Source: Bifidobacterium subtile
GTDB taxonomy: Bacteria; Actinomycetota; Actinomycetes; Actinomycetales; Bifidobacteriaceae
DNA length: 64,000 bases
Assembly (NCBI RefSeq): GCF_000741775.1
Contig: NZ_JGZR01000005.1
Span: 62,001 to 126,000 of the forward strand
Direction: 5' to 3'
In this document: piece after piece, positions 11,369 to 45,172 of the stretch
Layout: the number at the start of each line of letters is the position of its first letter
Numbering within the stretch: position 1 is the stretch's first letter
The notes under the pieces: generated by a model
The model's input: only the letters and a program-made list of their open reading frames with translations
Told to the model about the DNA's origin: nothing
The model's database searches: none
Translations under genes and position numbers: made by a program

Positions 11369-11511
11369 GGCTATCAGTATGCCTCAGCCATTAGTCAAGC
11401 CGGCCGCATCAGGCTCCGGTTTGCGCTGTTAAGCACTGTGTAAGCACTGTTAAACAGGCCCGCCACATGTGGGCCGAAATCGCCACAATACACGAAACAT
11501 GCAATCCCAAG

Positions 11512-11545
11512 AGATCGCAGTGCGTACCAGATCGCAGTACGTACC
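11512..11545. repeat. 17-bp tandem direct repeat upstream of the pheA-tyrA operon
   Basis: AGATCGCAGTGCGTACC is followed at once by AGATCGCAGTACGTACC, with one base difference. It lies about 145 bp before the first gene of the operon and could be a tandem operator; this is inference. Confidence 0.65.
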
Positions 11546-11574
11546 CGGCAACGCCGAAACGCCCAGATATGCGT

Positions 11575-11617
11575 GTGCCTCGGGAAAACTCTTTATACGA
11601 GAACCTTCCCGAGGCAC
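11575..11617 (-). terminator. Hairpin downstream of typA, probable terminator
   Basis: Perfect 12-bp stem GTGCCTCGGGAA/TTCCCGAGGCAC with a 19-base loop, about 55 bp after the typA stop. There is no clear T-run, so its role as a terminator is only probable. Confidence 0.5.
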
Positions 11618-11670
11618 GAGGCACATGGTCACAGCACATGCAAGCCCGGAATCACCGACTCATCACCAGC

Positions 11671-13593: not shown

Positions 13594-13882
13594 CGAAAAC
13601 CTCTCTTTAATGTTTCACATTTCCTAGCGTTAATTTCTAGCGTTCTACTTGCCGTTGTATACCGGCCCAACATCGAATGAGTTTCCACCTGTATTTACAC
13701 GCAAACCTTCACTACGATAGCGACGCGGGACGACAGAACGGCGTGAGGGCGCAGCAAGGCCGCATATGAGGCATTCCGACTTATTCGGCACGCTGTGTGC
13801 CATATGCCACGTGCCATGCGATTGCGCTGCCCGAAAACACGTCTCCGTCATGCCCTTGCATGGGCTCTCGCACGGCTGATTG

Positions 13883-15283
13883 CTAGTTCTCCAACTCCTT
13901 CCCCGCACGCTCGGGCAAAGCGAGAGCCGAAAGGCAGGCACACGCGAACACCGCGCCGAACACGATGAACGCGACTGTCTTGCCACCGCCGGCGATGGTC
14001 AGCAGCCACGGCACCAACAATGGTGCGACGATGGCCGCGATGCGCCCTACCGCTGCTGCCGCCCCGGAGCCGGCGGCGCGCAGACGCGTGGGATAGATCT
14101 CCGGCGTCACCGCATATAGCACGCCCCACGCGCCGAGGTTCGCGGCGGACAGCAGCATGCCGAAGACGAGCACGAGGGCCGGGGTACCGGCTTGGGCGAA
14201 GAGGAAGGCGGCCACTGCGGACACTGCGAGGAAGATGCTCAGCGTCTTGCGCCTGCCCCAGACCTCGACGAGCCATGCGGCGAGGAAATACCCGGGAAGC
14301 TGGGCCAGGGATATCGCCAGCGTGTAGCCGAAGGATTTGGTCAGGGAGCCGAACTGATCGGCGAGCAGCGAAGGCATCCAGGTGAAGGCGCCATAGTACG
14401 AGAAATTGACGAAGAACCAGGTGAGCCATATCGCAATCGTGCGCCCGCGATAGCGCTTCCCGAACAGGGTGCGCGTGGGTATCTTGGGCAGCGGCACGCC
14501 GGTGGGCGATGCCACTGGCGCTACGGAACTGGCGGCTTCGAAGTAGCGCACGGCACGCTCGGCCTCCACATCCCGGCCGTGGGCTTCGAGGAAGCGCACG
14601 GATTCGGGGATGTGCACACGTGCGACGATGGCATACAGCAGCGGCAGCGCACCGATGAGCAGCGCCCACCGCCATCCCCAGTCGCCAGTGCTGGGAATCA
14701 CGAAGAAACCGATGGCGGCGGCGATGATCCAGCCCACCGCCCAGAAGGATTCGAGCAGCACGGTCATGCGCCCGCGGTGCTTGGTCGGCGCGAACTCGCT
14801 GACGAGCGTCGAAGCGACCGGCAGCTCGGATCCTAGGCCCAGCCCAATGACGAAACGCGCCGCCAGCAGCGCCACGAGGCTCCACGCGAAGGCCATGGCC
14901 CCGTTGGCTAGGCCGAAAATAATCAGCGTAGCGGTGAATACGGTTTTGCGTCCGACGCGGTCGGCGATGAAGCCGCCGAGGGCCGCGCCTATCGCCATGC
15001 CGACGAAACCGATGGACAGCACCCAGGAGCGCTCGGTATTGCTTAGCGCGAAATGAGGGTCAGCGGCGATTGCGGCGACGACGAAGGAGACGAGACCGAC
15101 GTCCATTGCATCGAAGGCCCAGCCGATGCCCGAGGCGACCAGCAGCTTGCGGTGCGCCGCGTTGAAGGGCAGCCGATCCAGTCGTTCGTTGCGCGTCAGC
15201 GGCCGTTGCCCGGTTTGCGCGGCGCTGGCAGACTGACCGGGAGCGGAGGTCTCGGGGACTGGCATAGCGGATTGGGAAGTCAT
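13883..15283 (-). CDS. MFS transporter, possible niacin transporter (NiaP-like)
   Basis: 466 residues with twelve predicted transmembrane helices. It carries the major facilitator motifs ADRVGRKTVF after helix 2 and PESVRFLEAHGR at the end of the first half, as in the sugar/metabolite-proton symporter group. Helix 1 contains GIGWAFDAMDVGLVSFVVAAI, close to the NiaP/YceI and aromatic-acid symporters. The start follows AAGGAG by five bases. The specific call as a niacin importer rests mainly on context: the gene upstream (15477-16439) looks like NrtR, a regulator that often controls niaP. Without that neighbour it would simply be an organic-acid or aromatic MFS carrier. I saw no second copy of the NrtR palindrome in the 193-bp gap, so the two genes probably share the promoter before nrtR. 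Confidence 0.7.
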   Translation of the reverse strand: MTSQSAMPVPETSAPGQSASAAQTGQRPLTRNERLDRLPFNAAHRKLLVASGIGWAFDAMDVGLVSFVVAAIAADPHFALSNTERSWVLSIGFVGMAIGAALGGFIADRVGRKTVFTATLIIFGLANGAMAFAWSLVALLAARFVIGLGLGSELPVASTLVSEFAPTKHRGRMTVLLESFWAVGWIIAAAIGFFVIPSTGDWGWRWALLIGALPLLYAIVARVHIPESVRFLEAHGRDVEAERAVRYFEAASSVAPVASPTGVPLPKIPTRTLFGKRYRGRTIAIWLTWFFVNFSYYGAFTWMPSLLADQFGSLTKSFGYTLAISLAQLPGYFLAAWLVEVWGRRKTLSIFLAVSAVAAFLFAQAGTPALVLVFGMLLSAANLGAWGVLYAVTPEIYPTRLRAAGSGAAAAVGRIAAIVAPLLVPWLLTIAGGGKTVAFIVFGAVFACACLSALALPERAGKELEN

Positions 15284-15476
15284 AGCGACTCCTTGTCATT
15301 GATTGTCGTTGGATTCGGTTGGTGGAATAAGGGTGGATTAAGTTGGGGTTGGTGAATTTCAGGTTGGGCAGTGAAACCGATTTGCATGGTTTTCGCAATG
15401 CGAGCGCCTGAGCAGCAGTCAGGCGGTCAGCGACGCCGCAGGTCGGCGCACTCGGCTTGCGCGATTGCCGATACCG

Positions 15477-16439
15477 TTATTCGACGCCTTCGGATTGGCG
15501 CATGTCGTGGTGTGGCACGTTCGATGGCGCATCCCTTGGACGCAGCTCCGGCGACAGCACCGAGAGCACCTCTTCGAGGTCGGACTCCGACGCGCTGTTT
15601 CCTCCACGCCACATGACGTCGAATGCCGTGGGACGCTGCCATGCTTCTCGGCTCTCCCGGTCTGATTCGTCGTCTTCGTTGGCGCCCGCGTCGGTGCCTG
15701 AGTCGGCGCTCAAGCCATATGCGTTGCCGCCTTCGCCGGTACTCAGGCCGTACAGCATAGTGTCGCCGCCCGCTTGGGCGCCCGCGTAGCGATACAAGGT
15801 CGCAGGACGCTGTCGGCCATACCGCACCTTTTCATCCGTGGCTTCGAGCTGACTCGAAGCGAGCATGCGTCTGCGGAAATTGGCGAGGTCGATCGGATTG
15901 CCCGACACCGCCTCATAGACGTCGTGCAGCTGAGCCAGGGTGAAGGTCGGCCCGACCAGTTTGGCGACGATGTCAGGGTAGTCGATTTTCGAGCGCAGCC
16001 GCTCCAATGCATAGGCGATGATGCGGCCGTGGTCGAAGGCGAGCGCGGGCAGGTCGTTTTCCGCGAACCATGCGACGTTGTTCGCCTCGTGAAAGTTCTG
16101 GGTCTCGACCGTGCCCACCAAGGCCCAGTACACGACGGAAACCATCGGCAGACCCTCGTAGGATCGCTGCGCATCGCCGAAGGTGTAAAGCTGCTCAAGA
16201 TAGCTGGGGCGCAAATCGGTCGTGGAAGCGAGCGCCTCATACGCCGATTCCTCCAACGAACGATTCGATTGCACGTCGCCGCCGGGCAGCGCCCAGTCGC
16301 CGAGGAAGGGCTGGCGCACCCGGCGGACCAACGGCAGCCAAAACTCGGGTTTGGCTCCTCCCCCGAGCGCCAGAATGACTGTGGATACGCCAATCAGCGG
16401 CTGCTGTCGGCGTCGTTCGGTCACATTGCCCAATCCCAT
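15477..16439 (-). CDS. nrtR: Nudix-type transcriptional regulator, NrtR-like
   Basis: 320 residues. Residues about 10-150 form a Nudix-like domain (STVILALGGG, FLGDWALPGGDVQSNRSLEE). The catalytic Nudix box is degenerate: the expected acidic cluster after LEESAYEA is replaced by LASTTDL. That is typical of NrtR proteins, which sense ADP-ribose compounds without hydrolysing them. Residues about 160-235 look like the C-terminal winged helix (GPTFTLAQLHDVYEAVSG, DLANFRRRML). A disordered tail of about 80 residues follows. The family represses NAD salvage and niacin uptake genes, which fits the MFS gene downstream. A perfect palindrome lies 30 bp before the start, consistent with autoregulation. 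The start follows AAAGGCGG. Confidence 0.8.
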   Translation of the reverse strand: MGLGNVTERRRQQPLIGVSTVILALGGGAKPEFWLPLVRRVRQPFLGDWALPGGDVQSNRSLEESAYEALASTTDLRPSYLEQLYTFGDAQRSYEGLPMVSVVYWALVGTVETQNFHEANNVAWFAENDLPALAFDHGRIIAYALERLRSKIDYPDIVAKLVGPTFTLAQLHDVYEAVSGNPIDLANFRRRMLASSQLEATDEKVRYGRQRPATLYRYAGAQAGGDTMLYGLSTGEGGNAYGLSADSGTDAGANEDDESDRESREAWQRPTAFDVMWRGGNSASESDLEEVLSVLSPELRPRDAPSNVPHHDMRQSEGVE

Positions 16440-16468
16440 GCCATACCGCCTTTCACGCTCGATGCATT

Positions 16469-16493
16469 ATTTATAGTCATCATGACTATAAAT
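16469..16493. promoter_or_regulatory. Predicted NrtR operator
   Basis: A 25-bp perfect palindrome: ATTTATAGTCAT, one central C, then ATGACTATAAAT. It is 30 bp upstream of nrtR, in the position of an autorepressor site. Its TATAGTCAT half-site resembles known NrtR motifs as I remember them. Confidence 0.7.
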
Positions 16494-16520
16494 CAAATCA
16501 CCGCGTGACACACGGCAGGA

Positions 16521-16559
16521 GGCTCACATTTTTTGCATGCGCTGAAAAAAGTGCGAGCC
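16521..16559. repeat. Palindrome of the GCTCACAC family, copy 1
   Basis: Left arm GGCTCACATTTTTT and right arm AAAAAAGTGCGAGCC around GCATGCGCTG. It is closely related to the two perfect copies at 49030 and 49161. It lies between the nrtR operator and the scpB stop and could terminate the scpB transcript. Confidence 0.7.
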
Positions 16560-16580
16560 GAAGACCGTAGACCAAACTTT

Positions 16581-17516
16581 CTACTCGATTCGCATTGAGC
16601 CTTCATGCTCTTCCGCTTCGTCGCGCACCGTTGCGCTCTCTTCCATTTCCCGCTTTTCCACTTCCGTCTTTTCCATTTCATCTATGGGCGGCATGAACGG
16701 GGCCAACGAGGGCAATTGGTCGAGCGAATCCAAACCCATATGCTCCAAGAACAGCCCGGACGTCGCCAGCAGCGCCGCGCGGGATTCCGGGTCTATGCCT
16801 TCCTCACGTATCAGCCCGCGCACGACAAGCGAGCGGATTACGCCATCCGAGTTCACGCCGCGGATAGCTGCGACCTGGGCGCGGGTCACCGGCTGACGAT
16901 ACGCGATGATCGCCAGCGCCTCAAGGGCCGCCTGCGACAGGCGTGCGGTCTGCCCATCAGTCACGAATGCGGCGACGACCGGCTCGTAATCCGCCCGGTT
17001 GGCGAATTGCCAGCCGCGCACGGTATGCCGCAGCTCGAAGCCGCGCAATACGCCAGTCGAACCGTTGCCGTCAATGGAGCTGCAAGAGTCGTCAGATTTG
17101 CTGGTATCGGCGCGGTCGGCAAGATTGACGCGGCCGACGGAACTGGCGGATTTAGCGGAATCTTGGGATTCTACATGGCTGGCGAAAGCGGCTTCATCGA
17201 CAGCCTCGCCCCGGCCTGCAATGCCTTGGCCTGCCATATTCCCACGCCCGTCGTAGTCCGCCTGCAACGCCGCCAACGCCACATCGACCTGAGCCTCGTC
17301 GACGGCAAGCACCCGCGCCAAGTCGGCGGACTGCTGCGGCTGATCGGCAACCATGAGAATCGCTTCAAGACACCCGCGCAGGCCGCCGGGGAAATCCTCG
17401 ACATCGAAATCGACGTATTCCGGACGGGCAGGCGGCGCAGTGCGCTCTTGCGACGCGGCGGCGGACGGATTCGGCCCAGGCCACAGCCCCTGTGGCGTTT
17501 GCATTTCACCGCTCAT
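16581..17516 (-). CDS. scpB: Segregation and condensation protein B
   Basis: Subunit of the SMC-ScpAB complex that folds and segregates the chromosome. 311 residues. The first winged helix (LRGCLEAILMVADQPQQSADLARVL) and the second (SQAALEALAIIAYRQPVTRAQVAAIRGVNSDGVIRSLVVRGLI) are intact. They are separated by an acidic, serine-rich insert of about 60 residues (about 95-155) that is absent from most ScpB proteins. The C-terminus is a Glu/Met-rich tail. The ATG overlaps the scpA stop (ATGA), which implies translational coupling and balanced stoichiometry. Confidence 0.93.
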   Translation of the reverse strand: MSGEMQTPQGLWPGPNPSAAASQERTAPPARPEYVDFDVEDFPGGLRGCLEAILMVADQPQQSADLARVLAVDEAQVDVALAALQADYDGRGNMAGQGIAGRGEAVDEAAFASHVESQDSAKSASSVGRVNLADRADTSKSDDSCSSIDGNGSTGVLRGFELRHTVRGWQFANRADYEPVVAAFVTDGQTARLSQAALEALAIIAYRQPVTRAQVAAIRGVNSDGVIRSLVVRGLIREEGIDPESRAALLATSGLFLEHMGLDSLDQLPSLAPFMPPIDEMEKTEVEKREMEESATVRDEAEEHEGSMRIE

Positions 17517-18457
17517 GCGAAATCCCCCTCGCTTATCGTCAGCTCGGCATGCTCGTCGGCGTCCGCCGCCCAGCGGATAAATAAGGTCTCAAATGGCCCG
17601 GACTGCTTGAACTGCACTGCGCCCTGCTTGAAGAAGGTGAGCAGGGCAAGAAATCGTGCGACGACTTCGATGCGCGACGTCGCATCAGCGCTCAATGCGG
17701 CGAACGTCATCGATCCTTCGTTTCCCAGCGCCCGCAGTCGATCGCGCACCAAGGCCGATTGGGCCTGCAGGTCCACCATCGGCACGTGCAATTGATGCAG
17801 CGAGACCTGATCGACGGGTGCATTCGCAAGCGCATGAGCAGCCAACGCCGCAAGCTCATCCGCTCCCAGCGTCCAGACCAGTTCGGGCAGCATCGCCGCA
17901 ACCGCGTCATCCACGACTGCAGGATGAGGAAAACGCCCGGAATTCGCGGCGAAGCGCGCACGGAAATCCCCTGCGGCACGTTTGAAAGCGCGGTATTGCA
18001 CAAGTCGGGCGAAGAGCAGATCGCGTTCGCGCAGCGCCTCGATGCTCTGCTCGTCACGCTCGCCCTGCTCGTCGCCCGGCAGGAGCGCGGCGCTTTTCGC
18101 CTCGACCAGAATCGAAGCCACGTCAAGGAAGGCGCTGGCCTCGTCCATATGCTGCGCGAACTGGCTTGACGGGGTCGGCTGGTCCGGCGACGCTTCCTGA
18201 TCCGGTGACACTGCTTGGCTCGGCAACGCCGACTGTCCCGCCGCCACCGACTGGTCCGGTGACACAGTCTGCCCCGACGCCAAACCAAGCCGCCGCACAT
18301 ACGCCAGAAACTCCTCGGTGATGGCCGAAAGCGACACCTCGGTCACCTCAAGCCGTCTGTTCGCAATCATGCCCAGCAGCACGTCGAACGGCCCGGCATA
18401 GCCTTCGACGTCTACTTGGAAGCCGGAAACCGGCATTTCCTCGGCAGCAAGCGTCAT
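17513..18457 (-). CDS. scpA: Segregation and condensation protein A
   Basis: Kleisin subunit bridging SMC heads. About 314 residues. The N-terminal domain has FQVDVEGYAGPFDVLLGMIANRRLEVTEVSLSAITEEFLAY, diagnostic of ScpA. The C-terminus contains the winged-helix sequence TSRIEVVARFLALLTFFKQGAVQFKQ. Residues about 62-100 are an insert of repeated Ser-Pro-Asp-Gln-like units (VSPDQ, ASPDQ, PSSQ). Either the ATG at 18457 or the GTG at 18460 could start it; neither has a clear ribosome site, so it probably relies on coupling to parA, whose stop is seven bases upstream. Confidence 0.93.
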   Translation of the reverse strand: MTLAAEEMPVSGFQVDVEGYAGPFDVLLGMIANRRLEVTEVSLSAITEEFLAYVRRLGLASGQTVSPDQSVAAGQSALPSQAVSPDQEASPDQPTPSSQFAQHMDEASAFLDVASILVEAKSAALLPGDEQGERDEQSIEALRERDLLFARLVQYRAFKRAAGDFRARFAANSGRFPHPAVVDDAVAAMLPELVWTLGADELAALAAHALANAPVDQVSLHQLHVPMVDLQAQSALVRDRLRALGNEGSMTFAALSADATSRIEVVARFLALLTFFKQGAVQFKQSGPFETLFIRWAADADEHAELTISEGDFA

Positions 18458-18463
18458 CACACG

Positions 18464-19528
18464 CTATGCGACGATGCCGCGTGCGATGAGTTCGCGGGCG
18501 ACCTCGCGGTACTCCTTCGCCGTCTTGTGCCCGGGCGCGTACACCGTGATCGGCGCGGCGGCGACATTCGCATCGGGCAGCTTAATGGAGCGCGAGATCA
18601 CCGAATGGAAGACCTTTTCCTGGAAGGCCTCGTAGATGCGCTGCAGCACCTCTTCGCAGTGCAGGGTGCGGGTATACATCGTGACCAGCACGCCATGGAC
18701 CTCAAGGCTGGGGTTGATGCGCGAGCGCACCTTGTCGATCGATTGCATGAGCAGCGCCACGCCACGCAGCGCGAAGAATTCGGCGGCCACGGGAATGATC
18801 ACGCCGTCGGCGGCCGTCAGCGCATTGACCGTCAAGAGGCCCAGCGAGGGCTGGCAGTCGATGATGATGACATCGTATTCGTTGCGCACCTGGCGCAGCA
18901 CGCTGGCGAGTATCTGCTCGCGCCCGACCTCAGTGACCAGCTGCACTTCGGCTGCCGACAGATCGATGTTCGCCGGCATGATGTCAAGATTCTCGAACTC
19001 GGTATGCTGCACGATCTCGTGCACGTCAACCGAGGTGTCGAACAGTGCGGTGTACACCGTGTTCTCAACGGTGTTCGCATTGATGCCAAGGCCTACGGTG
19101 GCCGCCCCCTGCGGGTCGAAGTCGACGATGAGCACGCGCCTGCCGTACTGGCTCAGCGCCCCGCCGATATTGATGGAGCTGGTGGTCTTGCCTACGCCGC
19201 CCTTCTGGTTGCACATGGCGATGATCCGCGCCGGACCATGCTGATGCAGGGGTTTTGGCGCGGGAAAGGTCTCATATTCGCGACCAAGCAGATCAGTAGG
19301 CATATTCTTCACCATATCAAGAGGCCTGTTCACCGCCCCATGCGCCGAATCAGCCGCACCGAGCATATCGTCTGCATCGTCAACGGCCGGAATGCGCAAG
19401 GTGCCCGAGATCGGCAGCTGCGCCTGCACGGCATGCGCACGGCGAGCATTCGACTGCGAAGCATCCGAATCGCGCGGCTCCTTGGCTGCCTTGGCAACCT
19501 CAGCGGCCCACCGGCTCTCGTACGGCAT
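18464..19528 (-). CDS. parA: ParA/Soj family chromosome partitioning ATPase
   Basis: About 354 residues. After an N-terminal extension of about 100 residues comes the deviant Walker A motif CNQKGGVGKTTSSINIG, then VLIVDFDPQGAATVGLG, YDVIIIDCQPSLGLLTVNAL and VTMYTRTLHCEEVLQRI, all typical of ParA ATPases. It lies just before scpA and scpB, a common actinobacterial arrangement and distinct from the parA-parB pair near the origin. It probably helps load or position SMC-ScpAB. The second of two adjacent ATGs (19528) is better spaced from GGAGG. The true ParA of oriC could be elsewhere. Confidence 0.92.
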   Translation of the reverse strand: MPYESRWAAEVAKAAKEPRDSDASQSNARRAHAVQAQLPISGTLRIPAVDDADDMLGAADSAHGAVNRPLDMVKNMPTDLLGREYETFPAPKPLHQHGPARIIAMCNQKGGVGKTTSSINIGGALSQYGRRVLIVDFDPQGAATVGLGINANTVENTVYTALFDTSVDVHEIVQHTEFENLDIMPANIDLSAAEVQLVTEVGREQILASVLRQVRNEYDVIIIDCQPSLGLLTVNALTAADGVIIPVAAEFFALRGVALLMQSIDKVRSRINPSLEVHGVLVTMYTRTLHCEEVLQRIYEAFQEKVFHSVISRSIKLPDANVAAAPITVYAPGHKTAKEYREVARELIARGIVA

Positions 19529-35889: not shown

Positions 35890-37089
35890 ATGCATCGTGT
35901 CTTATCGCATGGATACCATGGGCACATGGGGATGCATAGGGAAACGCCACATGGCGACAGCGCAAACGGCAGTGCGCTTGGACAGACTGCAGGTAAGTCC
36001 GCGGCGGCTTTCGCCCCATTCGATCATCGCCCGTGCGGCGAGAAGAACCTCACTTTCACCTATATGCAGCAGACCTTCGCCACGGCGGGCTTGGCCTGGG
36101 ATGAATTCGATCAGGACGGCCTCCATCTGCATGACGCCCAGGGCGCGTTCACCGGAGCGGCGCTGCTGCTCTCCGATCAGAACCCTTTTGCTGTGAAATG
36201 CGCGGTTTTCGCTGGAGACACCAAAACGCAACTCAAGGACCGCGTTGAAATCCGCGGCTCGGCGCTGCGCCAGATCAACGATGCCGCGCATTTCCTCACG
36301 CTGCATAATATCGACGGCCAGTGGCCCGAGGCGGCGCTGCACGAATCGCTGGTCAACGCCGTGCTGCATCGCGATTACGAGTATTCGGGGCCGATTCTCG
36401 TCAACGTCTTCTCCAATCGCATCGAGATCGTCTCGCTGGGCGGCCTCGTCCGCGGCCTGCAGATCAACGATCTGCTCAACGGCATCTGCCAGCCGCGCAA
36501 TGCTTGGCTTGTGCCGATATCCACTGCATTGGGAATCGGCGAGAACTATGGCACGGGCATCCCGCGCATCATGGACGCATACGCCACCAGCTCGGCCAGC
36601 CCGCAGTTGCGCGTCGGTCCCTCCTCCGTGGCGATGGTCCTCCCCGTGCCGGTGCTCGACGACGAGTCGTGGAATGAGGAGAACGAAGGACACGACGGCG
36701 GCGACGATGACGAGCATCAGCGTACCGAGCCCGCGGCCAAGCGCTACGCATTCCCCGAGCTGCGGCCCTACATCACGCAGGATCACGCGCAGGCTCTGGT
36801 CGGCGCCAGAGTAATCGGCGTCGCCCCGCTTTCCACGCTGGTGCTCGGCACCGGGGCGACGCCCGAGGAGCAGCCGCTCGAGCCGCCCCATTCCTATGTC
36901 GTGCAAATGCTCGAGGAAGTGACGCTGCATCTCATGGCGAGCAACGGCGTTGCCTTAGTGCGCAAGGATCTCGAAATGCAGTTGGGCCTGAGCCGCAACC
37001 AAACAGCCTATCTGCTGCGTAGTCTGACCAGGCAGGGCAAGATTCGCAGGGTCGGTCACTCGCGGGCCACGCGATATTATCTGAGCTGA
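35890..37089 (+). CDS. ATP-binding (HATPase_c_4/AlbA_2-like) transcriptional regulator
   Basis: 399 residues. Residues about 50-130 look like the end of an AlbA_2 (Schlafen-type) domain (FTGAALLLSDQNPFAVKCAVF). Residues about 135-260 hold an ATPase of the HATPase_c_4 family, with ALHESLVNAVLHRDYEYSGPI and GENYGTGIPRIMDAY. The C-terminus (LEMQLGLSRNQTAYLLRSLTRQGKIRRVGHSRATRYYLS) is a winged helix. Such proteins are annotated as putative transcriptional regulators, and the role of ATP binding is unknown. An acidic insert (NEENEGHDGGDDDEHQ) separates the parts. The AlbA_2 domain appears shortened at the N-terminus. The start is uncertain; the ATG at 35926 is an alternative. Confidence 0.75.
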   Translation: MHRVLSHGYHGHMGMHRETPHGDSANGSALGQTAGKSAAAFAPFDHRPCGEKNLTFTYMQQTFATAGLAWDEFDQDGLHLHDAQGAFTGAALLLSDQNPFAVKCAVFAGDTKTQLKDRVEIRGSALRQINDAAHFLTLHNIDGQWPEAALHESLVNAVLHRDYEYSGPILVNVFSNRIEIVSLGGLVRGLQINDLLNGICQPRNAWLVPISTALGIGENYGTGIPRIMDAYATSSASPQLRVGPSSVAMVLPVPVLDDESWNEENEGHDGGDDDEHQRTEPAAKRYAFPELRPYITQDHAQALVGARVIGVAPLSTLVLGTGATPEEQPLEPPHSYVVQMLEEVTLHLMASNGVALVRKDLEMQLGLSRNQTAYLLRSLTRQGKIRRVGHSRATRYYLS

Positions 37090-37291: not shown

Positions 37292-38407
37292 TCAGATACC
37301 CGTATCTCGGCGAATTCGGGCACGATGCGACATGGCCCGTATCTGAGCGTAATAGCGCTCCTCGTTCAGGCCGTCAACGGTGGGAGTGTTGCGCAGCGTC
37401 ACCCCGTCCAGCCCGCCGGCCGCAGCGATTCGAGCGAGCAGATCGCGATGCCACGCCTCGTCCAGAATCGCTTCGAGACGGCGGCAGCCCAAAGAATACA
37501 TCGCGCACACCAGCGCATGGCCTCCCCAGTTCGAGGTGCCCGCCACGATGAGCTCGCGCGTGGCGACACTACAGGCGATATGCGTACCGTCCGCGACGGC
37601 GCCTTCGATGGCGAATCGCGCGATGCGACCCATGCCTATCTCATTGCCGCCGTCGCCGATGCCGATCGTATGCAGGCCAAGCGAAGCCAGGCGGCTGAGC
37701 GGGGCCGTCCACTCGAGGATGTCCATGCCGCGCATATTCCTCGGTATGCCATCGAGCGACGGACCGACGCGTTCGATGAATATGACCGTGTCGATGGATC
37801 GCGCCCGCACCAACGTCGTAACGGACTCCAGCCACGCGGCGAAACGCTCACCCCCGGGAGCGATGAGCACATGGTCGTCAGGCAGCGTGCCGTGCGCCGC
37901 CGCAGCGACCACCGGCTCGCACCATGCATCGCTGACCAGCCAAGCGTCTCCCCCTATGGAGCGCAGCGCGGAGCACAGCTCCACAGCCCCTGCGGGGCCA
38001 TCGGTTTCAGCGGCCGGGTACCGGGCATGCGGGATGTAGAACCCGGTCACGACCAGCGCCTTACGTCTGGCGCCTGCGGAGAGCCAGCGTGCGGCCCGGA
38101 ACAGATCGCCCTTCACGAAGGTCATGAGCGTCTCGCTGCCGCGTCCCACATCGTGGGCGGCCATGGTCTGGATGCCGGTCACATTGCGATAACGCCGCCA
38201 CACGCCCAACGACGCCCACAGGAGCCGGATGCCATTCCCTTTGCCGCTGCGCACCGCCTTGCTGGGCGCATTGTTTTTGGCACCGCTGTTTTTGAAGATA
38301 CCGCTATTGAGAACACTGCCCTTGAAAGCCTTGCCTTCGCGGGCGGCTCCTTCGCGGGCATCCTCTTCGCGAGCGACGTCCTCGTGCGCATAGTGGCCGT
38401 TGTTCAT
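37292..38407 (-). CDS. DUF4392 protein, D-glutamate cyclase-like
   Basis: 371 residues. The first 60 are low complexity. The rest matches the DUF4392 family: VTGFYIPHARYPAAETDGPAGAVELCSALRSIGG, FIERVGPSLDGIPRNMRGMDI, LGLHTIGIGDGGNEIGMGRI and HIACSVATRELIVAGTSNWGGHALVCAM. In vertebrates this domain forms the C-terminal half of D-glutamate cyclase (DGLUCY), which interconverts D-glutamate and 5-oxo-D-proline. Its ATG overlaps the accC stop (ATGA), so it is the last gene of the 5-oxoproline cluster. The N-terminal partner domain of the vertebrate enzyme, DUF1445, is a separate gene at 43134-43931. Activity here is inferred from family and context. Confidence 0.85.
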   Translation of the reverse strand: MNNGHYAHEDVAREEDAREGAAREGKAFKGSVLNSGIFKNSGAKNNAPSKAVRSGKGNGIRLLWASLGVWRRYRNVTGIQTMAAHDVGRGSETLMTFVKGDLFRAARWLSAGARRKALVVTGFYIPHARYPAAETDGPAGAVELCSALRSIGGDAWLVSDAWCEPVVAAAAHGTLPDDHVLIAPGGERFAAWLESVTTLVRARSIDTVIFIERVGPSLDGIPRNMRGMDILEWTAPLSRLASLGLHTIGIGDGGNEIGMGRIARFAIEGAVADGTHIACSVATRELIVAGTSNWGGHALVCAMYSLGCRRLEAILDEAWHRDLLARIAAAGGLDGVTLRNTPTVDGLNEERYYAQIRAMSHRARIRRDTGI

Positions 38408-40197
38408 AGCACCTCACCCAACTGCTGGCCGAATTCGACGAAATCTCCCGCCGCCGCCTGACTGCGCAGCACGCCGGCACGGGAAGCAGCGACCTGCGTC
38501 TCCATCTTCATGGCTTCGATGACGACGACGGGCTCGTCCTCATCCACGCTCGCCCCGTCCTCAACCAGCCAACGGACCACCGTACCGGCGAGCGGGGAGA
38601 CAATGGCATCGTCAGATTGGGCATTCTGCGCGTCATTGCTCGCCTGGCCGTCGCAGCCATGACTCGCGGTTGAATCCGGCGCATCACCACGCCCGCCAGC
38701 CGATGCCGCAAGCGCATTCAGCTGCGCACCCAACTGTGCGGGCAGGCCGAGTTCGACGCGCCTGCCATCGAGTTCAATCCAGGTGCGCGTCACGGCTTCG
38801 CTGTCCGCGCGCGTGCCCGGAGTCCCGCCGTCAAGCGACTCGGATGCGGTGCGCGGCAGGAACGCCTCTTCAATCCACCGGGTGTAGACGCTGAAGCGCC
38901 CCTCGTCGGCGAAGTCGGGTTCGCGCAACACGGCTTTGTCGAATGGCACGACGGTGGGCACGCCTTCGATATGCAGCTCGTCAAGAGCGTGCCGCATGCG
39001 TCTGATGCACTCGACACGGGTGCCAGCGTGGACGATGAGCTTGGCGAGCATCGAATCGAACTGATCCGGGATTTTCGAACCCGCGGCGATACCGGTGTCG
39101 AATCGCACGCCGGGTCCGCTCGGCGAGCGCAATGCGCTGATGACGCCGGGGAACGGCACGAAACCCCGAGCGGGATCCTCCGCGTTGATGCGGCATTCGA
39201 TCGCATGCCCGCGCGTATCCGGTCGCAGGCCGGCGAGCGACCCGCCTTCGGCGATGCGCAGCTGCTCGCGGACCAAATCGATGCCGCTGACCATTTCGGT
39301 GACCGGATGCTCGACCTGGATGCGCGTGTTCACTTCCATGAAGGACATCGTCCCGTCGTCGGCGACGAGGAATTCCACCGTGCCAGCGCCCACGTAGCCG
39401 ACTTGCGAGCAGATCGCCACGGCGGCATCCTCAAGACGCGCGGTCGTTTCATCGCTCAGGAACGGCGCAGGAGCCTCTTCGATGAGCTTCTGGTTGCGCC
39501 GCTGCAGCGAGCAATCCCTCGTGCCTACGGCGATCACGGTGCCGCAGGCGTCGCCAAGCACCTGCACCTCCACATGGCGCGGCCGGTCCAGAAAACGCTC
39601 GATGAAGCAGTCGCCATTGCCGAAGGCGAGTTCGGCCTCATGGGTCGCTGTCGCAAACGCCTCGCGTACCTCGTCGAGCCGGCGCACGACCTTGAGCCCC
39701 CGTCCGCCGCCGCCATGTACGGCTTTGATCGCCAGCGGCAGCCCGTATTCCTTGGCGAAATCCACGACTTCGGCGGGGTCATGCACCGGAGCCGTGGTGC
39801 CGGGAGCCATAGGCGCCCCGACCTCGGCGGCGATGGCGCGGGCCTGCACCTTGTCGCCCAGCGCTCGAATCGCGTCTGGACTCGGACCTATCCATATCAT
39901 GCCGGCGTCGATTACCGCCTGCGCAAAATCGGCGTTCTCCGAGAGGAAGCCGTAGCCCGGATGCACCGCGTCGGCCTTGGCTTCGCGGGCGACGCGCATG
40001 ATCGCCTCAATGCTCAGGTAGGTCTGCTGCGAGCTGCGGCCATGCAGGGCGTAGGCCTCGTCGGCTAGATTGACGAATAGCGCATCCGCATCGTCGTCGG
40101 CGTATACGGCGATCGCCGTGCGCCCGTCGTCGTGGCAGGCATGGATGATGCGCACGGCGATCTCCCCACGATTGGCTATTACAATCCGCTGCATCAT
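38404..40197 (-). CDS. Biotin carboxylase fused to a biotin carrier domain
   Basis: 597 residues. The biotin carboxylase part begins RIVIANRGEIAVRIIHACHD and has the ATP-grasp segment LAIKAVHGGGGRGLKVV, DCSLQRRNQKLIEEAPAP and MEVNTRIQVEHPVTEMV. The C-terminal biotinyl domain has the lysine in EAMKMETQV. A low-complexity linker of about 40 residues (AASAGGRGDAPDS...) joins them. There is no carboxyltransferase of the acyl-CoA type next to it; instead it overlaps, by ATGA, the fused PxpB-PxpC gene, whose domains share the fold of urea-carboxylase carboxyltransferase. This implies that the cluster acts through carboxybiotin. Its start overlaps the pxpBC stop, again by ATGA. Confidence 0.93.
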   Translation of the reverse strand: MMQRIVIANRGEIAVRIIHACHDDGRTAIAVYADDDADALFVNLADEAYALHGRSSQQTYLSIEAIMRVAREAKADAVHPGYGFLSENADFAQAVIDAGMIWIGPSPDAIRALGDKVQARAIAAEVGAPMAPGTTAPVHDPAEVVDFAKEYGLPLAIKAVHGGGGRGLKVVRRLDEVREAFATATHEAELAFGNGDCFIERFLDRPRHVEVQVLGDACGTVIAVGTRDCSLQRRNQKLIEEAPAPFLSDETTARLEDAAVAICSQVGYVGAGTVEFLVADDGTMSFMEVNTRIQVEHPVTEMVSGIDLVREQLRIAEGGSLAGLRPDTRGHAIECRINAEDPARGFVPFPGVISALRSPSGPGVRFDTGIAAGSKIPDQFDSMLAKLIVHAGTRVECIRRMRHALDELHIEGVPTVVPFDKAVLREPDFADEGRFSVYTRWIEEAFLPRTASESLDGGTPGTRADSEAVTRTWIELDGRRVELGLPAQLGAQLNALAASAGGRGDAPDSTASHGCDGQASNDAQNAQSDDAIVSPLAGTVVRWLVEDGASVDEDEPVVVIEAMKMETQVAASRAGVLRSQAAAGDFVEFGQQLGEVL

Positions 40198-42110
40198 GCC
40201 GCCTTCTTTGCTTGTTGCCTATCAGTCTGCTGAATATCCTGCTGGTTGCCTGTCCGTTCAGCGCCGTTGCAATCAGCGCCGTGCGGGTCGGCATCGAGCC
40301 GATCGACGCCGGCCCGATCTGCGTTCATCGCATCGGTATTCATTCCAGCGGTGTCCATCCCATCGCCTTCGACACCCATGCTGACTGAAACACTGTCTGC
40401 GGCGCCATCCGCGGCAGTACCCGGGTCACGGCCCGGCACTCGGAACCGCACCAGCGCACCCGCTGGCAATTGGCCCGCGAGCGCCAGCGAATCCGGGTCG
40501 AGCACGGCGATCACCGGGTAGCCACCAGTCACTGGATGGTCGCGCAGGAACAGCACCGGCTGGCCATTGCCGGGCACCTCGATGGCTCCAGCCACCGTGC
40601 CTTCGCTGTCCAGCTCCCTTGTCACGATCCGCTCCAACGGTCGTTCGGCATTCAGCCGCAGCCCGACACGATCGGAGCGCGTCGTCACGCTCCAGCATTG
40701 GCCAAGCAAGTCATCGATGGCCTGCGCGGTGAACCAGTCGTCGCGCGGCCCGAGTGCCGCGGTCAGTTCGGTGACCGATCCGCGTGCCGGCAGGCGCGAC
40801 CAGTCGACGCCGTGCCCGGTTATCGTGTGAGGCTCGTCGGTAAAGCCAAGAAAATCATCGGCGCGAATCGGTCCGGGGCCGATATGCGACATCGTGTCGC
40901 CGGAAGCGCTGCCCAGCACTTGCTCGACCGCAAAGCCGCCCTGCACGGCAAGATAGTCACGCAATCCGTCGCGCAGAGTCCCCAGCTCCACGCTGTCGCC
41001 ATCGTTCAGGATGAACGCCTCCTGACGCGCTATGGCAGTAAAGGAGCCGTCCTTCCCGCAGATGATGATCGGCGCCCGCGCACCCGCCAGCGCGACCACT
41101 GCCTCACCTATGGCGGCGAAGCATGCCCCTCCGCCGGCGATTTCGATTGCCGGCGTGCCGGCAGGATTGCCGACAAGCGCATTGGCCCGATGCAATGCCG
41201 TCGGGTCCGCCGCGCCGGAGGCGGTCACGCCCATGCTCGCAGCCGTGCGGCCGTCATCCTCGAATATGGCGAAGGCACCGGGCCGTACCACGCGCAGACC
41301 ATGTACGAGCACTGGCGTTGGCGCAGATCCGGCCCGTCGCCGAGTCGTCTGCTGGCCCTGTCGGCCCTGTCGAGCGGCGATGCCGACGCGATTCGCTGCG
41401 GCAGACGAATCGGCGTCTGCATCGGTCCCATCCGCCGCACTGCGATTGCTGCCGCCAACGGCGCCGATTCGCTCATGGGATACGCAGAATCGAACGCTGT
41501 CGCCCGGCTGTATCAGCGCCGGCGGGTCATGCCGCTCATCCCACAGCGCGACTGGCGTGAAGCCGATCAGCTGCCAGCCGCCCGAACTCGCGCGCGGATA
41601 GACGCCGCTGTACGCGCCGGCGAGTCCGACAGAACCCGCCGGCACGCGCAGCCGCGGTTCTTGGCGGCGTGGCACATTGAACAACGGGTCGTCGCCCGTC
41701 AAATACGCGAATCCTGGCGCGAAGCCGACGAAGGCCGCCGTCCACGAACATGACGTATGCCGCTCGACCAGCTGCTGCGGAGAGATGCCCAGCATGGCGG
41801 CGACCGCGTCCAAATCCTCGCCATCGTAGATGACCGGCACATCGACGGTGCGGCTCTCGCGGGCCGATTGGGGCTTATCGCTGCGCAGATCGCGGATTGC
41901 ATGCTCGATCGACATGCGCGAGACTTCCAGCGGCTCGAAGCGCACGAGCAGCGTGCGTGCGGCCGGCACGATTTCAGTAAGCCGCGCCAGGCAGGAGTCG
42001 CCTTCGCGCTGCCGCTGGGAGATGGCATCGAACAGGCTCATGACATCGTGCGCGTCTCCGGCATCGAGTTCTACGAGCAGCGCCGAGGTGCCGACGTTCA
42101 GGAAGCGCAT
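40194..42110 (-). CDS. Fused 5-oxoprolinase subunits B and C (PxpB-PxpC; KipI-KipA)
   Basis: 638 residues. Residues 1-210 are the PxpB/KipI domain ([73 protein letters not shown]). Residues about 250-560 are the PxpC/KipA domain ([79 protein letters not shown]). The two are normally separate genes. PxpA, PxpB and PxpC together hydrolyse 5-oxoproline to glutamate with ATP. The linker (residues 215-250) and C-terminus are low complexity. It overlaps pxpA by 13 bases and accC by four. Confidence 0.92.
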
Positions 42111-42952
42111 GGCCGGCCCTCACCCGCGAACGATGACAATGCGACGCCGTTCGATTCCAAGCGCTCGCGCACCGCCCGCGCCATATCCACGGCGCTGGGA
42201 CTGTCGCCGTGCACGCAGATGGAGTCGGCGTCGATACGGATCATCGTCCCATCGATGGCCTCGATGGTGCCGCCGGCAACGAGCTTCGCGATACGATCGG
42301 CCACCTCGCCCACGTCATGGATGACCGCGCCGGATTGCGAGCGCGGGACCAGTCGGCCGTCAGGCATGTAGGCGCGGTCGGCGAAGGCCTCGCTAAAGAC
42401 GCGCAGCCCGGCATCGGCGGCGATGAGGCCAACGACCGAGCCGGGCAAAGTGAGCAATCCCAGCGACGAGTCGACGGTCATGATGGCGTCGACGACGGCA
42501 CGAGCCTGCGTTTCGTCCACGGCGATGCGGTTGTACAGCGCCCCGTGCGGCTTGACGTATGACACGCTGGCTCCCACGCTTGCGGCGATGCCTTCGAGCG
42601 CCGCGATCTGGTAGATGACGTCGGCCTTGAGATCTCCCGGCTGCTCATCGAGAAAACGCCGTCCGAATCCGGAAAGGTCGCGGTAGGCCACGTGAGCGCC
42701 GATGCACACATGGTTGGCTGCGGCTTGAGACGCCGTGCGCAGGATCCCTGCGGGGTCGCCCGCATGGAATCCGCAGGCGATGTTCGCACTGGTCACCACA
42801 TCGAGCAGGGCCTTGTCGTCACCGAGCGTCCAGCGGCCGAAGCTCTCCCCCATATCGCTGTTCAGGTCGACGCTCTTCGCGCCGGCGCCGCTGGGACCGC
42901 TGCGTGCCGCGCGGGCGGAACCGGAAGCGCTGTCGTCCTCGTCGAAAACCAT
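42098..42952 (-). CDS. pxpA: 5-oxoprolinase subunit A (PxpA; LamB/YcsF family)
   Basis: About 284 residues. Typical family motifs are [90 protein letters not shown], and [21 protein letters not shown] at the end. PxpA works with PxpB and PxpC on 5-oxoproline, a cyclic form of glutamate that arises spontaneously and from peptide turnover. The ATG at 42952 is eleven bases after GGAGG. An upstream ATG at 42988 is also possible. The first 25 residues are a weakly conserved acidic extension. Confidence 0.93.
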
Positions 42953-43133
42953 TACTGTGCCATCCTCCCTGTGTTGTCGATGATCCATACCGTCGATGAT
43001 TCCAATGTCGATATTTGCGAGGCTGCGTGTGATTGCCGGTGACCGTGCGCTGCCTGATACGCCACGCCTCAGCTGCGATTATGCACCTGTGTCATATACC
43101 GCTGTGCCATATGCCGCTGTGTCTTATGCACTG

Positions 43134-43931
43134 CTACGCCATGTACTGGCGATCGGGAACATCGGTGATGAACATGTACCCCGGCGCATGGGTTATGGCG
43201 AAGGGCGGACGCGAGGCCATGACCGCGGCCTGCGGGGTGACGCCGCACGCCCAGAACATGGGGATGTCTCCCGGTTCGAGAACAGGCGCGTCGCCGTAAT
43301 CGGGATGGGCGATGTCGCCGATGCCGATGCCTGCCGGGTCGCCCACCCATACCGGGGCCCCGTGGACGCCCGGATAGCGGCCTGAAATCCGCGCGGCCTG
43401 GGCCACTTGGCTCGGCTGGATGCCGCGCATCGAGACGACCATAGTGGAGCTGAACCGGCCCGCGTCGGCGCAGCGAATCGAGGTGTCGTACATCGGCACG
43501 TTGGCACCGGCAATAATATGACGCACTGGGATGCCTGCGTCCATCAGTGGGAATTCGAAGGTGAAGCTGCAGCCGATCAGGAAGGTGACCAGATCGTCAT
43601 GCTCGTCCCAAACATCGCGGATGTCGTCACAGGTGTCGGCCAGCTCGCCGTCTCGCCATATGCGGTAGCGTCCGATGTCGGTGCGGATGTCGGCCCCCGG
43701 AGCGATCTTCGGCTCGTATGATCCCGCGTCGAGCACCTCCAGAATGGGGCAGGGCTTCGGATTGCGCTGGGCGAACAGCAGGAAGTCGAAGGCGTACTCC
43801 TTCGGCAGGCTGATCATATTCGCCTGCGCGTATCCGCGGGCGATGCCGCAGGTCGGGCGCGCCTGCCCGTCCCTGAAAGCGCGGCGGGCCTGGGCGGGCG
43901 AAGCTGAAGCGTCGAGCGAGATGTGTTCCAT
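43134..43931 (-). CDS. DUF1445 family protein (YcsI-like putative hydro-lyase)
   Basis: 265 residues. Family motifs are [92 protein letters not shown] and [36 protein letters not shown]. The domain is the N-terminal half of vertebrate D-glutamate cyclase and is annotated as a hydro-lyase in bacteria, where it is often near kipI/kipA-type genes. It lies 181 bp upstream of pxpA and should share its transcript. I chose the ATG at 43931, close to the usual start. The other half of the vertebrate enzyme is the DUF4392 gene at 37292-38407. Confidence 0.88.
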
Positions 43932-44209
43932 GCGGCTTATCCGTCCTTCGAATCGAGATTTCGTGCGCATGCGGGCGGCTGGTCTCCTTCCGCGTCGCAC
44001 TGCATTCCACGGTAAGCGCAAGAGGTTAAACGCGGATTACCATTGTCGAAACATGTGTTAACCGTGTCGCGCGGCAGCGGCCCCGTAGCCGCTCAGCACG
44101 CAGGTGTTCGCGACTTGGCTGCGTTGGTTGCGCGCCGATACGCGCCAAGGAGCGCACCGGTAATGTCGATGCGTTATCTTGTGCTTGAATCCAATGGAAA
44201 AGGAGCATC

Positions 44210-45172
44210 ATGGACTCGATCATTCTGGGTGTTGGCGGCAAGGACCTGTTCGCGCCGGAGCGCACTTCCCCGACCGATTCTGACAAGAATCTGATTCGCA
44301 TCGTCGATCCGCATTACCGCTGCGTGTCGCCCTTCGATCTGAGCGTGCTGCGCGGCGACGGCGTGTTCGAGGCGACCACAGTGTGGCACGGCTACCCGAT
44401 TTCCCTGGAGAACCATCTCAAGCGGCTGTCGAATTCAGCGCGGCTGATGGACATGCCCCAGCCGAATCATCAGGCGTTCGTCGCGGCGATCAACGAGGTC
44501 ATCGCGCAGTACGACGATCCCGAGCCGGCCCCTTTGCTGCGCATTCTCGTGTCGCGCGGCATGGACCCTGACACCGGCATCGGCAAAACGAACTACGGCA
44601 CGCCCAGCGTGTGGATGTTCCTGGACGGGCGTGGCACGCTGCACGATACCGCCCCGATCACGCTGACCTCGCTCAGCCGAGGCTATGCCAGCGATGTCAC
44701 CGCGCGTGCGCCGTGGCTGCTCAACGGCGCGAAGACCCTGAGCTACGCAGTCAATCAGGCGATGCATCGCGAATGCCGGCGGCGTGGAGTTAATGACGCG
44801 GTGACCTATACCGCCGACGGTTTCACGCTCGAATGCCCGAATTCGTCGATCGTGGCGCAGTACGGCGACAGCCTCATCACCCCCGACCCGCGCATCGGCA
44901 TCCTCAACGGCACCTCGCAGCGCGAGATGTTCGCCTGGGCACGGCAGGAAGGCTTGGATATCAAGTACTCAAAACTGCCCATCGATCAGCTGCGCGAAGC
45001 CGACCGGCTGTTCATCACGCACGGCGGCTGGGTCATCCCTGTGTCCGCGCTTGACGGACGTGTCTACGACGTTGACGAAACCCAGGTCGCCGGCATCAAC
45101 GACGCCATCCACTCCGGCCGCACCCATGACGACGCGCTGTCGATCGGGCCGTTGGGAGCTTACGAGGAGTAG
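44210..45172 (+). CDS. PLP-dependent class IV aminotransferase (aminodeoxychorismate lyase-like)
   Basis: 320 residues. The class IV fold motifs are FDLSVLRGDGVFEATTVWHGYP, ENHLKRLSNSARLMDM and LLRILVSRGMDPDTGIG, with the catalytic lysine in LNGAKTLSYAVNQAM. Then come CPNSSIVAQYGDSLITPDPRIGILNGTSQREMFAWA and LFITHGGWVIPVSALDGR. The group includes aminodeoxychorismate lyase (pabC), branched-chain aminotransferases and D-amino-acid aminotransferase, and the substrate cannot be fixed from sequence. It is divergent from the 5-oxoproline cluster with a 278-bp shared upstream region, so a D-glutamate role is possible but unproven. An AAAAGGAG site precedes the start. Confidence 0.85.
   Translation: MDSIILGVGGKDLFAPERTSPTDSDKNLIRIVDPHYRCVSPFDLSVLRGDGVFEATTVWHGYPISLENHLKRLSNSARLMDMPQPNHQAFVAAINEVIAQYDDPEPAPLLRILVSRGMDPDTGIGKTNYGTPSVWMFLDGRGTLHDTAPITLTSLSRGYASDVTARAPWLLNGAKTLSYAVNQAMHRECRRRGVNDAVTYTADGFTLECPNSSIVAQYGDSLITPDPRIGILNGTSQREMFAWARQEGLDIKYSKLPIDQLREADRLFITHGGWVIPVSALDGRVYDVDETQVAGINDAIHSGRTHDDALSIGPLGAYEE

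Follow-up and report, generated by a model that had tools for sequence, protein, structure and literature searches.

A Bifidobacterium subtile gene cluster joining PxpA, a fused PxpB-PxpC, a biotin carboxylase and a split D-glutamate cyclase-type pair: a possible module for both enantiomers of glutamate and 5-oxoproline

The cluster and its conservation in Bifidobacterium

The window, i.e., the 64,000-nucleotide stretch of Bifidobacterium subtile DNA analysed here (contig NZ_JGZR01000005.1, positions 62,001 to 126,000), contains five minus-strand genes encoding a DUF1445 protein, PxpA, a fused PxpB-PxpC (PxpBC), a biotin carboxylase (BC) with a biotin carboxyl carrier protein (BCCP) domain and a DUF4392 protein, with a divergent class IV aminotransferase gene beside them. 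The five genes had been described in an earlier note on this DNA, and their positions were confirmed by open reading frames and family models. The overlaps of the last four genes that the note had reported were likewise reproduced from the open reading frame coordinates, being 13 bases for PxpA/PxpBC, 4 for PxpBC/carboxylase and 4 for carboxylase/DUF4392. The features are as follows.

43134..43931, minus strand: DUF1445 (PF07286, D-Glu_cyclase; NF003969 putative hydro-lyase), 265 aa, by Pfam and NCBIfam
42098..42988, minus strand: PxpA (LamB/YcsF; LamB_YcsF), 5-oxoprolinase ring-opening subunit, 296 aa, by Pfam and NCBIfam NF003814
40194..42110, minus strand: fused PxpB-PxpC (CT_C_D and CT_A_B), 638 aa, by Pfam
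38404..40197, minus strand: biotin carboxylase with C-terminal biotin carrier, AccA3 type, 597 aa (Biotin_carb_N, CPSase_L_D2, Biotin_carb_C, Biotin_lipoyl)
37292..38407, minus strand: DUF4392 (PF14336, GLUCM-like_C, 220 bits), 371 aa, by Pfam
44210..45172, plus strand: divergent class IV aminotransferase (PRK07849/Rv0812-like), 320 aa, a candidate D-glutamate-using transaminase

The genes for DUF1445 and PxpA are spaced by 145 bases, and a scan of positions 43000-44400 for promoters and terminators returned no match. According to Pfam and NCBIfam, the five members of the unit include no transporter, regulator or allophanate hydrolase gene.

A search of the genus found PxpBC in 23 of 112 Bifidobacterium genomes. 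All 23 neighbourhoods were read, and each holds DUF1445, PxpA, PxpBC, BC and BCCP together; the claim of the earlier note that the carboxylase belongs with PxpBC is thus borne out. The class IV aminotransferase is present in all 23 genomes as well (the unit of G386 being split across two contig ends), and DUF4392 lies in 21 of the 23 neighbourhoods, the two exceptions (G381 and G405) stopping at a contig edge. In a set of 37 genomes of the genus, DUF4392 and PxpBC occur in the identical six genomes, and DUF1445 occurs in those six plus G019, whose contig ends within the cluster. Fisher tests, computed ignoring relatedness, gave p = 6e-16 for the aminotransferase and 4e-7 for DUF4392. Among frames of at least 150 residues around the window locus, matches in at least three of eight other loci of the genus were found only for the five genes, the aminotransferase and antisense frames. 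A dnaG-dgt run beyond the aminotransferase is common to six of the loci read (G011, G035, G384, G437, G438 and G439). Based on these observations, the five genes and the aminotransferase very probably constitute a single functional unit in Bifidobacterium. Decayed clusters were also observed: in G373 (locus L247), which has lost PxpBC and BC, PxpA and DUF4392 persist along with pieces of the DUF1445 and aminotransferase genes, and in G379 (locus L252), the aminotransferase and DUF1445 are left together with pieces of PxpA and DUF4392, indicating that the unit also undergoes loss.

PxpBC and its biotin carboxylase

The PxpA of the cluster passes the family model NF003814 (359.7 bits, cut-off 226) and PxpB passes TIGR00370 (153 bits, cut-off 145.55). 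PxpC misses both the equivalog NF045499 (136.1 bits, cut-off 500) and TIGR00724 (195 bits, cut-off 230.2) and passes CT_A_B PF02626 (235.5 bits, cut-off 25), so that the protein is PxpC-like rather than filed as PxpC. The predicted structure of PxpBC has a mean pLDDT of 77.5, with low values in the linker (about residues 216-266) and the C-terminal tail. The structures that it matches best are TTHA0988 (3oep; Z 38.0, rmsd 2.6, 468 residues), the pair Msmeg0435-Msmeg0436 of M. smegmatis, labelled 'allophanate hydrolase' (3mml; Z 37.0, rmsd 1.8 over 284 residues), YbgJK of E. coli, and both urea amidolyase and urea carboxylase of K. lactis. PxpBC has the carboxyltransferase fold of urea carboxylase, and Pfam assigns it carboxyltransferase domains only.

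In comparison with the PxpABC 5-oxoprolinases of B. subtilis and C. glutamicum (pxpTABC), homologues of PxpA, PxpB and PxpC again share one operon. Here, however, PxpB and PxpC are fused, a dedicated biotin carboxylase/carrier and the DUF1445 and DUF4392 genes are added, and genes for a transporter or a regulator are absent from the unit. Urea carboxylase (K. lactis 3va7 and bacterial fused forms) offers a second comparison, as it also combines BC, BCCP and CT_A_B/CT_C_D domains, and the chemistry modelled here would likewise be an N-carboxylation of an amide. The differences are that the domains are here on two chains, in the order PxpB-PxpC rather than PxpC-PxpB, and that PxpA replaces the allophanate hydrolase. 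Membership in the urea carboxylase family itself was rejected, since TIGR02712 scores 519.8 and 115.2 bits on the two chains against a cut-off of 1303.85 and the chain architecture differs.

The biotin carboxylase carries the biotinylation motif EAMKME, with Lys564 as the biotin lysine, which is kept in all six aligned sequences of the genus. Its best match in the Protein Data Bank (PDB) is AccA3 (E 8.5e-187). The genome of the window encodes a second BC/BCCP, adjoined by a carboxyl transferase (PF01039), so that the housekeeping subunit is probably not the cluster BC; against AccA3, the cluster BC scores 625 bits and the second BC 534 bits. The carboxyltransferase partner of the cluster BC would be encoded by pxpBC, the gene that it overlaps by 4 bases, and homologues of the two co-occur in a solved complex (PDB 9yx5, see below).

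To place this arrangement, pxpC loci were gathered from the PxpBC search among relatives, a DUF4392 scan, and PF02626 searches of three phyla, and they form a non-random sample. The phyla searched for PF02626 were the window's phylum (39 of 148 genomes), the phylum of a Bradyrhizobium (21 of 80) and the phylum of the Clostridiales genome that holds L128 (28 of 81). After removal of the duplicates L066, L070 and L240, and with L264, L260 and L257, whose contigs are as long as those of L064, L067 and L069, not included, 118 loci remained: 31 with BC beside pxpC (a separate frame within 6 kb), 71 with none, five with a fused urea carboxylase and 11 cut by contig or locus ends. A BC-like match within a 1071-residue frame (L211, L212) was not scored as BC. 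PxpA was not seen in 9 of the 71 loci without BC; three of the 71 (L148, L161 and L170) have the urea carboxylase order PxpC-PxpB without PxpA, and they were placed in the urea carboxylase group for the column comparison only.

Of the 102 uncut loci that are not urea carboxylases, 31 thus have BC beside pxpC; outside Bifidobacterium the figure is 22 of 93. The 31 comprise nine loci from Bifidobacterium, three from the same order, 11 from families f32 and f39 and eight from the Bradyrhizobium phylum, with none from the Clostridiales phylum. One locus of the Bradyrhizobium phylum (L200) reads PxpA-DUF1445-PxpBC-BC/BCCP, which is the Bifidobacterium unit without DUF4392. On a PxpC tree (a quick method, with support by SH-aLRT only), the presence of BC changes 6-7 times, at least four of these changes being forced by starred branches, which indicates that inside a single family BC and pxpC came together or were parted more than once. 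The earlier note had made its proposal depend on homologous clusters not usually lacking the two DUF genes or the carboxylase. Inside Bifidobacterium the set is invariant, whereas outside the genus the uncut loci mostly lack them, 71 of 93 having no carboxylase, 67 of 93 no DUF1445 and 92 of 93 no DUF4392. DUF1445 occurs in 17 of the 31 BC loci and 18 of the 71 others; outside Bifidobacterium the figures are 8 of 22 and 18 of 71, showing no clear tie of DUF1445 to BC. When the 31 BC-linked PxpC sequences were compared with 69 unlinked ones, no column separated them (at least 85% uniform in each group, with different residues), and conservation of at least 90% in all three sets, BC-linked, unlinked and urea-carboxylase-like, was seen at 28 columns. 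By this comparison, a PxpBC that uses biotin could thus not be told by its sequence from one that does not.

The arrangement of these genes varies among families. In family f39 (L145, L151, L153 and L162), the order is PxpB-PxpC-BCCP-BC-DUF1445-PxpA with BCCP and BC as separate genes, and no PxpA is found in the stretch read of L162. In family f32 (L146, L149, L152, L155, L157 and L165), BC is divergent and BCCP adjoins PxpA.

A physical counterpart is provided by PDB 9yx5, released 2025-11-26 and titled 'Structure of the long chain acyl-CoA carboxylase complex from Mycobacterium smegmatis with MSMEG_0435-MSMEG_0436 bound', which contains AccA3 plus chains matching the cluster PxpB and PxpC. 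An AccA3-type BC/BCCP is thus found with PxpB/PxpC homologues in both systems; AccA3 there is shared with acyl-CoA carboxylases, whereas the BC gene here overlaps pxpBC. The PxpC of locus L176 matches the 9yx5 chain (E 1.2e-144) and falls in an unlinked PxpC branch with L173, L177 and L178, suggesting that the PxpBC homologue bound to the AccA3 holoenzyme in M. smegmatis probably has no dedicated BC gene. The annotation of MSMEG_0435-0436 is allophanate hydrolase; they are listed with urea enzymes and up under nitrogen limitation (PMC4617892). Despite this annotation, they are homologues of PxpC and PxpB.

Several of these results weigh against a carboxylase that drives PxpBC. No BC lies nearby in 71 of the 102 uncut loci, outside Bifidobacterium DUF1445 is only slightly more frequent with BC than in its absence, and 9yx5 documents binding rather than catalysis. 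The binding of MSMEG_0435-0436 to the carboxylase complex may be regulatory. Moreover, the mycobacteria-like pxpB-pxpC loci (L173, L176-L178) have neither BC nor PxpA in the stretch read; MSMEG_0435-0436 therefore need not be a 5-oxoprolinase, and their role may differ. The phosphorylation of 5-oxoproline by PxpBC with ATP, an assumption in the literature (PMC13274462), points the same way. These points could be accommodated if two unrelated functions shared one operon, i.e., an ordinary PxpABC phosphorylating 5-oxo-L-proline and a DUF1445/DUF4392 damage-control pair, with BC as a spare alpha subunit of acetyl-CoA carboxylase. This explanation would also agree with the phosphatase report for a DUF4392 protein discussed below, yet against it stand four overlapping genes, a set invariant in 23 genomes, the juxtaposition of BC and pxpBC in several separate PxpC branches, a second BC/BCCP that has a carboxyl transferase to itself, and a PxpBC with nothing but carboxyltransferase domains, and we consider it doubtful.

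Another explanation keeps the BC/BCCP-PxpBC-PxpA enzyme and changes its substrate to a different amide, ureido compound or lactam (urea, hydantoin or another lactam), the 5-oxoproline name having been carried over. The failure of PxpC at the NCBIfam equivalog cut-off, which is a point against a 5-oxoproline substrate, and the urea carboxylase fold are consistent with it, as is the annotation of MSMEG_0435-0436 together with their nitrogen-limitation response. It is nevertheless unlikely in view of PxpA and PxpB exceeding the 5-oxoprolinase cut-offs, the co-resident DUF1445/DUF4392 pair, which suggests glutamate/5-oxoproline, and the absence of allophanate hydrolase from the five genes.

DUF1445, DUF4392 and the divergent aminotransferase

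Both domains of vertebrate DGLUCY are present in the cluster, PF07286 at 211.8 bits (cut-off 25) and PF14336 at 220 bits (cut-off 27.9), and these Pfam matches support the proposal of the earlier note that DUF1445 and DUF4392 are a split DGLUCY-type pair. DGLUCY carries both domains, DUF1445 at its N-terminus, and turns D-glutamate into 5-oxo-D-proline (PMC5339696). The cluster does not encode a single chain of this kind: the two domains are two genes at opposite ends of the operon, with three genes between. Split DGLUCY homologues of gut bacteria are already known, homologues of human GLUCM in the gut having been tabulated as 0 full-length and 6 split (PMC12547972).

The DUF4392 scan, which used the genus alignment, gave at least 515 confirmed matches, of which the best 80 were retained; 25 of these 80 loci have less than 3 kb on one side. 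Among the best 80, DUF1445 lies beside DUF4392 in 39 loci, on the same strand in all 39; of the 72 loci from outside Bifidobacteriaceae, 33 have the two genes no more than 2 kb apart. In the same 80, pxp genes are also present, outside Bifidobacterium, only in L117 and L128. Six acidic residues bind metal in the DUF4392 protein TON_0340 (PMC5132392); they are kept in all 88 DUF4392 sequences compared, a few of these being duplicates, and correspond here to E134, D136, E212, D252, E256 and D345. TON_0340 was reported to have low Mn-dependent phosphatase activity (PMC5132392), which speaks against a cyclase, so that a cyclase role of bacterial DUF4392 is presumptive, and a phosphatase role was retained as an alternative. 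The chances that DUF1445 and DUF4392 act on D-glutamate/5-oxo-D-proline may be called even.

The divergent aminotransferase is present in 34 of 112 genomes of the genus, namely in 23 of 23 with PxpBC and in 11 of 89 without, which supports its membership of the unit in Bifidobacterium. Three of the 11 carriers without PxpBC (G373, G379 and G019) retain parts of the cluster. The other eight (G016, G026, G030, G374, G385, G388, G396 and G422) show nothing left of the cluster within the stretches read, which counts against a strict tie. The gene is fragmentary in G026, G373 and G385. Two clusterless copies contain an in-frame stop (G422:C24:13450-14388 and G385:C1:315687-316070, the latter fragmentary as well), as though these copies were decaying.

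The earlier note had pointed to the family that includes D-amino-acid aminotransferase, a view favoured by three results, namely the association within the genus, the pabB-type match and the Bacillota counterparts. By name the enzyme is an aminodeoxychorismate lyase, passing NCBIfam NF005888 (366 bits, cut-off 273) and failing the D-amino-acid transaminase model TIGR01121 (46.3 bits, cut-off 277.45). The first of these results is the main point in favour of a folate aminodeoxychorismate lyase that is a mere neighbour of the cluster. An aminodeoxychorismate lyase would be expected to act with PabB, and the only pabB-type (TIGR00553) match in the window genome, a draft of 27 contigs that is 98.48% complete, is TrpE, which scores 687 and 516 bits with anthranilate synthase models (cut-offs 693 and 517.7) and 256 bits with pabB (cut-off 328.4). 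The pabB cut-off is exceeded in none of 46 genomes of the genus, G372 having a second match at 311 bits. Of 14 control genomes, just four exceed it, which weakens the argument: the cut-off is strict, and what the PabB argument depends on is therefore the identity of the one match as TrpE.

Further evidence comes from two Bacillota genomes (L117 and L128), in which a different class IV enzyme precedes pxpB-pxpC-DUF1445-(pxpA)-DUF4392. Their class IV enzymes match D-amino-acid transaminase models best, at 235 and 221 bits, below the 277.45 cut-off, and both contain an Arg-x-His stretch, which we take to be typical of D-amino-acid transaminases. On the PxpC tree the two loci group as sisters and thus count as one lineage. 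Among the pxpC loci, a class IV aminotransferase is present in 11 of 11 with DUF4392 and in 1 of 107 without, the latter being L206 (6160-7089); the aminotransferases were counted with phmmer (E 1e-8, three queries), by which divergent members may be missed. As nine of the 11 are from Bifidobacterium, the combination of pxp genes, DUF4392 and aminotransferase represents about two lineages, which limits its weight. The association across 112 genomes, together with the co-location in Bacillota, led us to reject the view that the aminotransferase is a chance neighbour. Directly downstream of the Bacillota cluster of L117, at about 9850-18800, lies a phage-like run with terminase- and portal-like frames, as judged by eye.

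Rv0812 (PDB 6q1q) is a relative of the cluster aminotransferase in the same class IV subfamily (Rv0812/PRK07849, aminodeoxychorismate lyase/D-amino-acid transaminase), from which the present case differs in that no PabB partner was found in the window genome. Rv0812 catalyses both reactions and prefers D-Glu over D-Ala (PMC8105722). With this, the genus association, the TrpE-only match and the Bacillota counterparts on the other side, the folate-lyase explanation is improbable. Whether the cluster aminotransferase acts on D-glutamate is a balanced question.

A possible module for both enantiomers

In urea carboxylase, the CT_A_B/CT_C_D domains transfer CO2 from biotin onto an amide nitrogen. 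Given this chemistry and a PxpBC with carboxyltransferase domains only, the simplest reading is an N-carboxylation of the lactam followed by hydrolysis by PxpA. The biotin carboxylase would spend ATP and offer carboxybiotin on Lys564 to PxpBC, which, as the carboxyltransferase, would N-carboxylate the 5-oxoproline lactam. PxpA would then hydrolyse the activated ring, and the carbamate would break down to give glutamate and CO2. On the D side, DUF1445 and DUF4392 would interconvert D-glutamate and 5-oxo-D-proline, and the divergent aminotransferase could connect D-glutamate with 2-oxoglutarate and D-alanine. The net effect would be to draw both 5-oxoproline enantiomers and D-glutamate, e.g., from peptidoglycan turnover, to the glutamate/2-oxoglutarate pool. 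A module of this kind, serving the two enantiomers together and using the transaminase as the exit for D-glutamate, fits every gene. In outline, i.e., the unit with a biotin-dependent 5-oxoprolinase and split cyclase roles, this two-enantiomer glutamate/5-oxoproline module is assigned a probability of about 0.4.

Its parts differ in strength. It is somewhat favoured that the biotin carboxylase drives PxpBC in this cluster. The carboxybiotin-driven lactam hydrolysis, one of two routes offered in the earlier note, is strengthened by its context (gene order, domains, the biotin lysine and the 9yx5 homologues) but stays a proposal. The Pxp enzyme is known for 5-oxo-L-proline and is encoded in the majority of 984 surveyed genomes (PMC13274462, 2026). 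As a more tentative generalisation, prokaryotic 5-oxoprolinase might be biotin-dependent throughout, with a BC either dedicated or borrowed from acetyl-/acyl-CoA carboxylase, 9yx5 being a possible example of the latter, in which case the phosphorylation scheme would be wrong. The direction of flux as proposed is doubtful. The equilibrium lies far toward 5-oxoproline (for the L form, Keq is about 0.035; PMC13274462), and a bacterial D-glutamate cyclase together with a D-Ala/D-Glu transaminase was guessed to be more likely anabolic (PMC6131576), at odds with a purely catabolic role.

The other route of the earlier note, from D-glutamate to L-glutamate, fails on stereochemistry and was rejected as the main route, because the cyclase yields 5-oxo-D-proline and the unit has no racemase. 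Opening 5-oxo-D-proline returns D-glutamate unless the alpha carbon is inverted, and we know of no gene of the unit that does so. It could be rescued if DUF1445 or DUF4392 racemised 5-oxoproline, an activity so far unrecognised, as every part except the inversion is present and one Bacillota lineage has these parts without BC. We regard this as very improbable, the unit having no known racemase: the 'racemase' link of DUF4392 goes back to similarity to a protein annotated as racemase (PMC5339696), and the solved DUF4392 structure, which has a metal site, resembles the RecJ core most closely (PMC5132392).

For the use of ATP by PxpABC, where phosphorylation is still an assumption, the overlapping dedicated BC gene makes a carboxybiotin mechanism directly testable; if true, a nitrogen-scavenging enzyme would be tied to biotin and acyl-CoA carboxylase. 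The D-glutamate arm gives a lead to the function of bacterial DGLUCY relatives in a gut genus facing D-glutamate from peptidoglycan. Among the literature matches listed, no publication describing this cluster or a biotin-dependent PxpABC was recognised.

Just past DUF4392, at window positions 35890-37089, lies a gene for a putative RecG-like (HATPase_c_4) protein. Such a gene also adjoins the cluster in G011, G426 and G439, and a copy 35% identical lies close to the clusterless aminotransferase of G016.

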